Positions 19,755 through 26,386 of a DNA stretch of 35,626 bases are shown here, piece after piece. The position numbers and the translations under genes are program-made. The first letter of the stretch is position 1. Every line of letters begins with the position of its first letter. The DNA is taken from contig JALOPS010000004.1 of NCBI GenBank assembly GCA_025453745.1, forward strand, positions 1-35,626, given 5' to 3'. The DNA comes from Gemmatimonadaceae bacterium. Lineage in GTDB: Bacteria; Gemmatimonadota; Gemmatimonadetes; Gemmatimonadales; Gemmatimonadaceae. The notes beneath the pieces are model-generated. The model did not search any database. It was not told the DNA's origin and saw nothing but the letters and a program-made list of their open reading frames with translations.

Positions 19755-20069
19755 CTACTGCGCCAAGGCCCGTGCGCGCCCTTCGACTTCTACCGAGATC
19801 CGCTCGCACATGATGTCGCAGAGCTTGAAGATCTGCCGATCGGCTAGGGCGTAGTACGCGAAGAGCCCCTCCTTGCGTTTGCGCACGAACCCCGTGGTGT
19901 GGAGCAGCGCGAGGTGCTTGGAGGTGTTGGCCTGCGAGAGCCCGGTGAGCTCCACCAGCTCAGTGACCGTCCGCTCGCCGTCGCGCAACGCGCTGAGCAA
20001 GCGCAGGCGAGCCGGGTCGGCGAGCACCTTGAAGCGATCGGCAACGAGGAGGAGCAACTCAGGCGACAT
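19755..20069 (-). CDS. ArsR-family transcriptional repressor
   Basis: A 104-residue winged-helix protein. Helix-turn-helix region VTELVELTGLSQANTSKHLA (about 35-54) and wing FVRKRKEGLFAYYAL (about 61-75) are typical of ArsR/SmtB repressors. It has only two cysteines, Cys84 and Cys88, four residues apart on the predicted last helix (FKLCDIMCERI). The CVC metal motif of ArsR/SmtB alpha-3 proteins is absent, and the paired Cys positions of BigR/SqrR-type persulfide sensors are not both matched. It lies 80 bases downstream of a DUF2892 gene, an arrangement like E. coli ygaV-ygaP. It may repress the efflux operon that precedes it through the palindrome at 26186-26201. That is inference. Confidence 0.92.
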   Translation of the reverse strand: MSPELLLLVADRFKVLADPARLRLLSALRDGERTVTELVELTGLSQANTSKHLALLHTTGFVRKRKEGLFAYYALADRQIFKLCDIMCERISVEVEGRARALAQ

Positions 20070-20149
20070 GGTCCGGGGCACCGCATGCGCTCCACGAGCG
20101 GGGGAAGTGGGAAGATCGCTCGGCGACGTCGTACGCGACACCGGTGCGC

Positions 20150-20371
20150 TCACGTGCGCTCCGCGCCCTGTGCGCGCGGCGTGCAGCCGAGCCACCCGAA
20201 GTGACCGAGCATGCGCTCGAGCGGGCAGAAACCGGTGAGGCTCGTCTGAAACAGGTTGAGCCCCACGAACGCCGTGAAGAAGAGAAACGCCGGATGCACC
20301 CACACGCCGAGCGCGAGCGACGCGAGGATGAACAGACCGGCGATACGGAAGATCAGGGCACTGGAGCACAT
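20150..20371 (-). CDS. DUF2892 (YgaP-type transmembrane domain) protein
   Basis: A 73-residue inner-membrane protein with two helices (about 7-22 and 27-42) and a C-terminal [16 protein letters not shown], the conserved FCPL block of DUF2892. In E. coli YgaP this domain follows a rhodanese; here no rhodanese is fused or adjacent. The ATG at 20371 gives the compact family length; ATG 20413 would add 14 residues of unsupported leader. It lies 60 bases after the RND gene and before the ArsR gene, so it probably belongs to the same transcript. Cys residues at 2 and in FCPL might handle sulfur, but this is speculation. Confidence 0.85.
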
Positions 20372-20431
20372 GGCGGGATGGGTGGGGGTGTTGGCGGACA
20401 GCGTACACGGCAACGCGAAGGACGCAGATGA

Positions 20432-24721: not shown

Positions 24722-26125
24722 TCAGTGGGAGAGCGTGTCGGCGCGAAGCGCAACGTCGGCGACGGCATCGAGCGGTGCGAGGCGCGCGGGGTCATTGCCG
24801 ATGGCACGCGCGTGCTCGGCGGCCGCGATGATGAGCGCATGGCGCGCGGCGGCAGCGCCGAGCCGCACCTGTGTTTCGGTGGCGGCGGCGGTGAGCAGTT
24901 CACTCACGGCCGCGAGGCCACCGGCGTACTTGCGACCGATGATGCGGTGCGCGTCGGTGGCCTGGGCGACCGCGCGCTCGGCGATGTCGCTGCGCGCGCG
25001 GGCAACGGCCACGGCAGTGGTCGCGCGAGCGATCTCGAGTTGTGCGCGGGCAATGGCGCCGTCGTGCATCGCCTGCGCACCGGCGCGGCGCGCCGCGGCC
25101 GCGCGGGTCTCGCCCCAGTCGGCGAGCCCGGCCACCGGCACCCACGACGCCATCACACCCACCGTCCAGTTGCTGGCACCGCCGAAGGGGCGAAGTGCGG
25201 AGTTCCAGTCGTAGCGGGCGAAGCCGTTGAGGCGTGGCAGATACGTGGCGCGCGTGCGCTGTACATCGGCATCGGCGGCGTTGCGCATGGCCTGCGCGGC
25301 CCGCAGATCGGCTCGTGTCTCGGTGCGCGCCACGATCGCCGGCGCGTCGAGCAGGGCGTCGATACGCGCGCGCGGCGGCAAGGCGTCCGGCAGGGCGAAG
25401 TTCGTGTCGCCCGGCGTGCCGATGACGGTCGCGAGCGCCAGTCGCGCCGTAGTGGCGTCCCCGCGGGCTTCGATGAGCGCAGCTTCGACCTCGCCGGCCT
25501 TCACCGCGGCGAGCATCGCGTCAGACGGCGTGACGATGCCGTTGCGGGCCATCGCCTCGGCCTGCTGCACATGGGCGCGCGCGGCGCGCAGCGCGGACTC
25601 GAGTGTGCGGGCCTTCTCGTTGGCGAGCGTCGCGCCGTACCACGCGGCGATGACGTCGACGTGAATGCCCACGCGCGTCCAGTCGGCGTTGGCGTCACTG
25701 GCGCGGGTGGCGTGCTGCGCGCTGCGGCGGCCGGCCCAGGCATCCACGTTGACGATCGGCTGCTCGATCGAGAGCGCGCCAGTGTAGTTGGGCGTTGCGC
25801 CCGGGAAGTTGAGTCGCGCAGGGTCGAAGTTCGCGGGGGTGACCTGGCGCTGGCGGAGCGTGGTGCCAAAGACGCCGATGGGATCCGTGGTGCGGAGATA
25901 GCCGGCATCGACGCGTGCAGTGGGGAGCACGCCGCGGAGCGCGGTGAGGGCGGCGGCGCGTTGCGCGTCGGCGGCGCTCCGGGCGCCGCGATTGGCGACG
26001 GCGAGTCGCTCGGCGCGGGCGAGCGCGTCGGCGAGGCGGAGCGGCGGGGGCGGCGCTCCCGGCTGCGCGAGGAGCGCCGCGGGGAGGAGGGCGAACAGGG
26101 CGCTCGGGAGGACGCGAGGGGGCAT
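24722..26125 (-). CDS. TolC-family outer membrane efflux protein
   Basis: A 467-residue outer-membrane channel protein, first gene of the efflux operon. A signal peptide of about 20 residues (ending LLAQ) precedes two OEP repeats, each with a long helical, Ala-rich region. Typical short blocks are LRLADALARAERLA at the start, LSIEQPIVN near the first strands and ASWVPVAGLADWG in the second repeat. The length is typical. No clear Shine-Dalgarno sequence precedes ATG 26125. The AT-rich palindrome lies 60-75 bases upstream and is the obvious place for its promoter and repressor. Confidence 0.92.
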   Translation of the reverse strand: MPPRVLPSALFALLPAALLAQPGAPPPPLRLADALARAERLAVANRGARSAADAQRAAALTALRGVLPTARVDAGYLRTTDPIGVFGTTLRQRQVTPANFDPARLNFPGATPNYTGALSIEQPIVNVDAWAGRRSAQHATRASDANADWTRVGIHVDVIAAWYGATLANEKARTLESALRAARAHVQQAEAMARNGIVTPSDAMLAAVKAGEVEAALIEARGDATTARLALATVIGTPGDTNFALPDALPPRARIDALLDAPAIVARTETRADLRAAQAMRNAADADVQRTRATYLPRLNGFARYDWNSALRPFGGASNWTVGVMASWVPVAGLADWGETRAAAARRAGAQAMHDGAIARAQLEIARATTAVAVARARSDIAERAVAQATDAHRIIGRKYAGGLAAVSELLTAAATETQVRLGAAAARHALIIAAAEHARAIGNDPARLAPLDAVADVALRADTLSH

Positions 26126-26185
26126 GCGTGGGCTCAGCGGGGTGAGGCGGGGGGCGCGCGGGGCGCCGCGGTCGTCGGTCTTTGT

Positions 26186-26201
26186 ATAACCATATAGTTA
26201 T
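26186..26201. promoter_or_regulatory. AT-rich near-palindrome, candidate ArsR operator and promoter of the efflux operon
   Basis: ATAACCATATAGTTAT is symmetrical at 14 of 16 positions (arms ATAAC/GTTAT) and stands out as an AT-rich island in very GC-rich DNA. It lies between the divergent tolC-like gene and katG. On the minus strand a TTGCGC to TATGGT pair spaced by 16 bases places a candidate -10 inside the palindrome. AT-rich dyads at promoters are typical of ArsR-family operators. Regulation by the ArsR at 19755-20069 is inferred. Confidence 0.5.
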
Positions 26202-26386
26202 TTAGTGACCGCGCAAGGGCGCATGGCCGGCACCGTCGCCCCGCGGCGTCCGATGCCGGTGGGACTTCGGTTCGCCCCGCAGCGCGTCTAATCGTCCGCC
26301 GAACGGACCGTCCGGGCGGCGATAGCTTTCGTCTGGTCGGCGCCGCACGCCGACGGACTCACCACGCACCACCCGGAGACACACCG

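Follow-up and report, generated by a model that had tools for sequence, protein, structure and literature searches.

We describe a candidate reactive-sulfur efflux operon in a Gemmatimonadaceae bacterium, carried on a 35,626-nt stretch of contig JALOPS010000004.1 (assembly GCA_025453745.1; contig C61 in our numbering) that we call the window; the genome is a draft of 4.7 Mb in 521 contigs, 81% complete. Five closely spaced genes on the minus strand, in the order tolC-MFP-RND-DUF2892-arsR, encode a TolC-type outer membrane channel, a membrane fusion protein (MFP), a resistance-nodulation-division (RND) permease, a small membrane protein, and an ArsR-type repressor. The operon is probably an autoregulated efflux unit within a reactive-sulfur (sulfide and sulfane-sulfur) stress regulon, controlled by its ArsR, which would sense through cysteines C84 and C88. 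We consider the comparative evidence that the pump belongs to such a regulon strong, making this its most likely affiliation, and the window ArsR most likely acts at a putative 24-bp palindromic operator 5' of tolC. Comparison between loci establishes the gene order, the predicted operator, and the sharing of that operator between pump and sulfur operons. An earlier sequence-only reading had placed ArsR and DUF2892 genes at the close of a TolC-MFP-RND efflux operon, and they lie where it put them, with the order kept in other genera of Gemmatimonadaceae. Permease, adaptor, and TolC-type channel are encoded together, as in tripartite RND efflux systems, the RND start overlaps the MFP stop, and the DUF2892 protein exceeds the PF11127 gathering cut-off for a YgaP-like membrane domain.

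The operator was first seen as an AT-rich dyad, ATAACCATATAGTTAT at 26186-26201, palindromic in 14 of 16 positions; it is present upstream of tolC as the sequence-only reading had it, and forms the core of a longer conserved 24-bp palindrome. Within the window it is the sole match within 3 mismatches (0.01 expected), and in the assembled genome the sole exact match. Further operator copies in this genome were sought and rejected: four other places, each with 3 mismatches, are weak and not above the backward control pattern, which has 6. A similar element, degenerate in some cases, precedes tolC in 12 Gemmatimonadota pump operons with the tolC start in hand from a first locus set, built around the top ArsR matches among 288 genomes of the order and fetched regardless of the dyad. 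The consensus of the operator sites is a perfect 24-bp palindrome, CTATATAACTATATAGTTATATAG. A score matrix trained on 13 tolC sites, the window site among them, gives leave-one-out scores of 25.8 to 43.7; the window operator scores 33.9 when left out, against a maximum of 2.8 in five Markov-generated windows. The -10 hexamer of the best-scoring -35/-10 pair, with a spacer of 16-17, falls within the palindrome in 15 of 26 operons examined. The corresponding window pair rests on relatives with TTGACA-17-TATGGT/TATAGT, and a generic promoter scan did not call it.

With the matrix fixed and a threshold of 15, we scored a held-out set of 40 additional ArsR loci followed by 37 RND loci, taking as scorable those tolC upstreams whose RND is at least 60% identical and excluding loci in which tolC or a persulfide dioxygenase (PDO) gene is cut by a contig edge. 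Genes of the loci were called with a crude purpose-written script, and L039-L042, apparently the same places as loci from the G-numbered genomes, were left out of this analysis and of the ArsR alignment. The operator reaches the threshold in 26/33 held-out tolC upstreams, so that the check proposed at the outset, for the same dyad in orthologous operons, finds it conserved there as in the 12 initial operons. The background is 2/274 upstreams of other called genes (loci up to L095, anything near sulfur or pump genes excluded) and 12/1200 random 360-nt windows, which include some true sites. Column-permuted symmetric matrices reach means of 0.57/33 (tolC) and 0.30/17 (PDO), with maxima of 16/33 and 7/17 that we presume stem from permutations near the TA-rich original. 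In three Holophagae loci the element is not 5' of tolC; sites of 20-26 instead precede arsR, itself ahead of the pump genes (ArsR-TolC-MFP-RND-DUF2892 in L052, and the same order without a DUF2892 match in L053, at a contig end). A listed ArsR lies within 7.5 kb of at least 63 of 110 RND matches, and of at least 62 of the 93 at 66% identity or more. Weaker operator-like sites between DUF2892 and arsR in L057 (10112; 14.8), L072 (2640; 15.3), and L088 (6292; 13.9) hint at a second, internal autoregulated arsR promoter, none being seen in the window.

The same operator leads to sulfur genes. It scores 15 or more in 14/17 held-out upstreams of PDO operons, and the ArsR subfamily also occurs at operons for rhodanese-YgaP (PF00581+PF11127), TauE (PF01925), a metallo-beta-lactamase (MBL)-rhodanese PDO (PF00753+PF00581), and YeeE pairs (PF04143), families whose representatives were profile-scored and the remainder assigned by similarity. 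Both background matches (L091, L094) precede cytochrome c genes with a SoxA/TsdA domain (PF21342) that head YeeE-ArsR clusters, and in L094 the next genes encode a SoxC sulfite dehydrogenase (TIGR04555, 503 bits, cut-off 420), a cytochrome c, two YeeE proteins, and ArsR. Five loci (L098, L100, L116, L124, L129) combine YeeE genes, ArsR, operator, and pump operon, and one genome (G096, locus L168) holds PDO-TauE-operator-ArsR and DUF2892-RND-MFP-TolC-operator inside 8.7 kb. Four pump operons without an ArsR match in the surrounding 14 kb keep the operator (L161, 36.6; L162, 24.9; L163, 27.3; L171, 26.2), and their genomes (G242, G248, G235, and G240, respectively) carry an ArsR within a TauE-PDO-ArsR operon, with upstream scores of 13.1, 17.4, 16.4, and 17.6; G240 has a second, YeeE-type ArsR (L130). 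This is the pattern expected from trans control by one regulator. By script-assigned context, the 94 aligned ArsR sequences fall into RND (38), PDO (22), YeeE (9), RND+YeeE (3), OsmC (2), PDO+YeeE (1), and other (19). On the ArsR tree, which has few columns and many open forks, 16 changes are required to place the 'RND neighbour' label, of which no fewer than 8 are forced by starred branches; the regulator has thus apparently switched between pump and sulfur operons. The recognition helix is closely alike across these contexts. It is thus in the relatives that this ArsR stands beside, and shares an operator with, PDO, rhodanese, TauE, or YeeE genes; in the window itself it accompanies the pump only.

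It is very improbable that another regulator binds the dyad, with the operon-end arsR merely a passenger. The operator lies 6 kb from arsR in the window and the link between them rests on comparison, but the operator stands ahead of arsR, or of operons that include arsR, in RND, PDO, and YeeE settings, and ArsR is the sole gene family seen in all three. We therefore take ArsR as the likely binding protein, and infer its effector, the part played by C84/C88, and the exported substrate in the following scheme. An ArsR dimer on the 24-bp palindrome would cover the -10 of the tolC promoter and shut off transcription of the whole operon, from tolC through arsR. C84/C88 in helix alpha5 would be modified by sulfane sulfur, as persulfide or polysulfide, or by some other thiol-reactive compound formed from sulfide, and the repressor would leave its operator. 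Together with the YgaP-type membrane protein, the pump would then contribute to removing a toxic product derived from sulfur, alongside the persulfide dioxygenase, rhodanese, and TauE that in relatives appear to be under the control of this ArsR subfamily.

The regulator itself scores above the cut-offs of PF01022 and NF033788, as expected of the ArsR/SmtB family. Its structure model (mean pLDDT 91.9) ends in a helix, residues 80-103, that holds C84 and C88, its only cysteines. Fold comparison confirms only the winged-helix fold, with Z scores of 12-14 to SmtB, CzrA, BigR, and SqrR entries and no more than 2 units between metal and sulfur sensors. The alpha5 C-x3-C motif (positions 84 and 88) is kept in 83/94 ArsR sequences, window included, whereas a cysteine aligned to SqrR C41 or C107 occurs in 0/94; in the pairwise alignment to SqrR (6o8k), S26 stands opposite the first cysteine and the second falls just past the alignment end. 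Membership of the YgaV/BigR/SqrR group was accordingly rejected, both sensing cysteines being absent and the BigR model giving 45.9 bits against a cut-off of 155. The earlier suggestion that the gene pair mirrors E. coli ygaV-ygaP thus stands for the membrane protein, which matches the YgaP membrane domain and lacks rhodanese, and falls for the regulator. After the general model, the best equivalog is TsoR (NF045707; 50.9 bits, cut-off 115), and our literature search found no paper on TsoR with ArsR. Conservation and context suggest that C84/C88 sense sulfur.

A dithiol could serve another ligand. Dithiols bind soft metals, and the best sequence matches of this ArsR/SmtB-family protein among solved structures are to SmtB, a metal sensor. 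ArsR might thus detect a soft metal or metalloid (arsenite, antimonite, mercury, or cadmium) through C-x3-C, with the pump exporting that metal or its sulfide complexes and the sulfur genes induced as metals disturb thiols; metal-sulfide export was proposed for a pump of Azospira suillum PS in the accessible text of PMC5358917. We regard this as unlikely. The SmtB/ArsR metal sites, Asp/His/His/Glu in alpha5 and Cys-Val-Cys in alpha3, are not kept: the window ArsR has no CVC box and no histidine after residue 57, so that an SmtB-type alpha5 metal site is absent, though C84/C88 may form another metal site. Besides the pump, the operator marks operons for PDO, TauE, rhodanese, and SoxC/YeeE. The permease falls short of the CusA/CzcA heavy-metal class (261.4 bits against the TIGR00914 cut-off of 701.45); such systems share the TolC-MFP-RND architecture and differ in neighbourhood. 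Six control regions with CusA-type RND genes have DUF2892 in 0/6, a flavoprotein of the kind described below in 0/6, and ArsR in 1/6, with metal-resistance or metal two-component genes nearby in 5/6; being CusA/CzcA-type and thus a distant class, they make a loose control.

The sequence-only reading had also proposed that one repressor might link export with peroxide or reactive-sulfur defence. The operator common to PDO operons favours the reactive-sulfur half of this; the peroxide half, which rested on the divergent katG, finds no such backing. The operator occurs in 0/29 other katG upstreams of the family (from the 29 genomes ranking best among 71 others that have katG; 500 nt where the contig allowed), and among the Gemmatimonadota pump loci searched katG stands beside the pump in the window only, so that katG was rejected as a regulon member. 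A local effect on the window katG is conceivable, and nothing in the analysis supports it. The same observations bear on the idea of a general multidrug pump for xenobiotics or redox stress, its ArsR responding to electrophiles or oxidants, with katG co-induced and the tie to sulfur reflecting general thiol chemistry. The permease is of the AcrB family (PF00873) in a TolC-MFP-RND layout with a divergent katG, and binding of YgaV to the katG promoter has been reported for E. coli (PMC9774250, accessible text). On the conjugative Rhizorhabdus wittichii plasmid pIBU218 (L153, 1-15129), the genes for a flavoprotein, a related RND, and ArsR are surrounded by katG, another catalase gene, a gene for a DNA-starvation protection protein, and those for cytochrome bd. 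However, the operator is missing from all 29 other katG upstreams and its remaining targets found are sulfur-oxidation or sulfur-transport operons, and we consider a multidrug role quite unlikely. Separately, in L118 katG lies 9.5 kb from a YeeE-type ArsR.

Relatives of the pump in other phyla keep similar company. A tblastn search of plasmids with the window RND found 53 records at E <1e-100, with a best identity of 50%; among the 30 of these that were listed, 11 annotated regions from 10 genera, one or two per genus, were read in PLSDB gene tables that are incomplete. ArsR and DUF2892 lie near these RND relatives (45-50% identity) in 10/11 regions, nine alphaproteobacterial and one cyanobacterial, an FAD-type oxidoreductase stands beside the RND in 9/11, and some regions add rhodanese, PDO, YeeE, or cytochrome bd. 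The Paracoccus and Pseudanabaena flavoproteins resemble type III sulfide:quinone reductase, below the curated cut-off (204 and 82 of 525 bits); the others are identified by annotation. The Paracoccus ArsR carries the SqrR cysteines by alignment, and the pump type therefore goes with two kinds of ArsR. These patterns raise a tentative possibility, which we would put no higher, that export of sulfane-sulfur species from the cell (as polysulfides or small-thiol persulfides, perhaps in metal adducts) is the task of a dedicated RND family in several phyla, controlled in Gemmatimonadota by a new ArsR class that would read sulfane sulfur by an alpha5 C-x3-C dithiol instead of the SqrR pair.

Several observations weigh against placing the operon in a reactive-sulfur regulon, or narrow what can be drawn from the counts. 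The score is below 15 in 7/33 held-out tolC upstreams (L102, L112, L125, L176, L177, L179, L180), although a strong site does occur in L112, some 680 nt upstream, and another in L102 near its ArsR, and in 3/17 PDO-operon upstreams (L075, L076, L117). The best site of the whole stretch is the one 5' of tolC in just 10/15 of the first held-out loci, and the relatedness of the loci means that the counts cannot be read as independent events. For a sister family in this order, with RND identities of 54-58%, none of 6 scorable loci has a site of 15 or more before tolC; arsR (28-35% identity) there precedes tolC in 9/12 loci, with a site of 19.7 before arsR in L184. A side clade of eight ArsRs (L107, L115, L120, L121, L127, L131-L133) has kept the first cysteine and lost the second in 6/8, and the neighbours read do not look sulfur-related: in L131 arsR is followed by a gene that Pfam assigns to a beta-CASP nuclease (RNase-like), and in L121 and L132 apparently by genes that begin alike. 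The ArsR subfamily is therefore not solely about sulfur. In the window genome, the PDO gene (contig C202, L136) starts at a contig edge with its promoter out of view, and the YgaP-like locus (L143) is without an operator site. Flammeovirga has a related RND without ArsR, DUF2892, FAD-type oxidoreductase, rhodanese, PDO, YeeE, or cytochrome bd nearby, and deletion of the Azospira operon left the H2S oxidation rate unchanged, according to the accessible text of PMC5358917.

Features of the window discussed here, with their supporting matches
Feature	Position	Strand	Basis
24-bp palindromic operator (predicted)	26182-26205	-	CTAAATAACTATATGGTTATACAA read towards tolC; consensus CTATATAACTATATAGTTATATAG
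tolC promoter (inferred)	26189-26216	-	TTGCGC-16-TATGGT, -10 inside operator; 7/12 consensus matches, weak
tolC-family outer membrane efflux protein	24722-26125	-	PF02321, 8.9e-35
RND periplasmic adaptor (MFP)	23671-24708	-	TIGR01730, 177.6 bits (cut-off 94.9)
RND permease, 1079-1080 aa	20432-23671, or GTG start at 23674	-	PF00873, 2.9e-156
DUF2892 / YgaP-like transmembrane protein, 73 aa, without rhodanese	20150-20371	-	PF11127 (YgaP-like_TM), 36.5 bits (cut-off 25.3)
ArsR/SmtB-type repressor (predicted), 104 aa, alpha5 C84-x3-C88	19755-20069	-	NF033788, 85.7 bits (cut-off 55)
katG, divergent neighbour of tolC	26387-28597	+	TIGR00198

Around the operon, an M28-family peptidase gene (PF04389; 17998-19713) lies directly 3' of arsR on the same strand and may share its transcript. 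Beyond katG, a perfect 25-nt direct repeat in two copies 30 nt apart (29201-29255) stands just 5' of a PadR-family regulator gene (PF03551; 29382-29768), and a sigma-70-like promoter, TTGATA-17-TATAGT at 29273-29301, is the sole one called in 18500-30000 (0.7 expected). Inspection by eye shows a further AT-rich dyad, TATACAT-N9-ATGTATA at 29278-29300, that overlaps this promoter and is perhaps a site of PadR autoregulation; the dyad at the operon promoter is thus not the only AT-rich one, as had been claimed, the second lying outside the interval covered by the sequence-only reading.

Known systems share parts of this arrangement. Like the window protein and its relatives, SqrR, BigR, YgaV, SoxR, and sHdrR are small ArsR repressors with PDO, rhodanese, TauE, or YeeE neighbours, and RND pumps are among the likely targets of two-cysteine sulfane-sulfur ArsR regulators in a 2025 survey, which, in the part accessible, required the SqrR cysteines (PMC12423496). 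The window family differs from these in its cysteines, as described above, and its operator CTATATAACTATATAGTTATATAG is unlike the SqrR-type ATTC-N8-GAAT given in the accessible text of PMC9774250. E. coli ygaV-ygaP has in common with the window an ArsR and the YgaP membrane domain, and its YgaV is the regulator reported to act on katG (same source); the window differs in having no rhodanese and no YgaV cysteines and in being joined to a tripartite pump. In Azospira suillum PS, Dsui_3440-3443 (sulfide:quinone reductase (SQR), efflux pump, and MFP) are highly expressed under H2S oxidation, with Bar-seq support, and combine an RND-type pump with a sulfide gene; there SQR lies inside the operon, no TolC or ArsR is named in the accessible part of the source, and the likeness drawn here is by description (PMC5358917).

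A tie between sulfur and RND pumps is thus already in print, and the new elements are an operator common to pump and sulfur operons, a different cysteine pair, and the occurrence in this phylum. Our literature search, for which subscription journals were mostly outside coverage, found neither such a shared operator, nor a class of sulfur ArsR with the alpha5 C-x3-C pair, nor this system in Gemmatimonadota. Enzymes that destroy persulfides are well known; how reactive sulfur might be exported across two membranes is, as far as we know, not settled. With an operator in common with persulfide-dioxygenase operons, the present pump offers a candidate for such export that can be put to the test. If the proposal is true, the regulator would show that sulfur sensing in the ArsR family is possible with a different cysteine pair, and surveys that require the SqrR cysteines, as the accessible text of PMC12423496 describes, would therefore miss such ArsRs.

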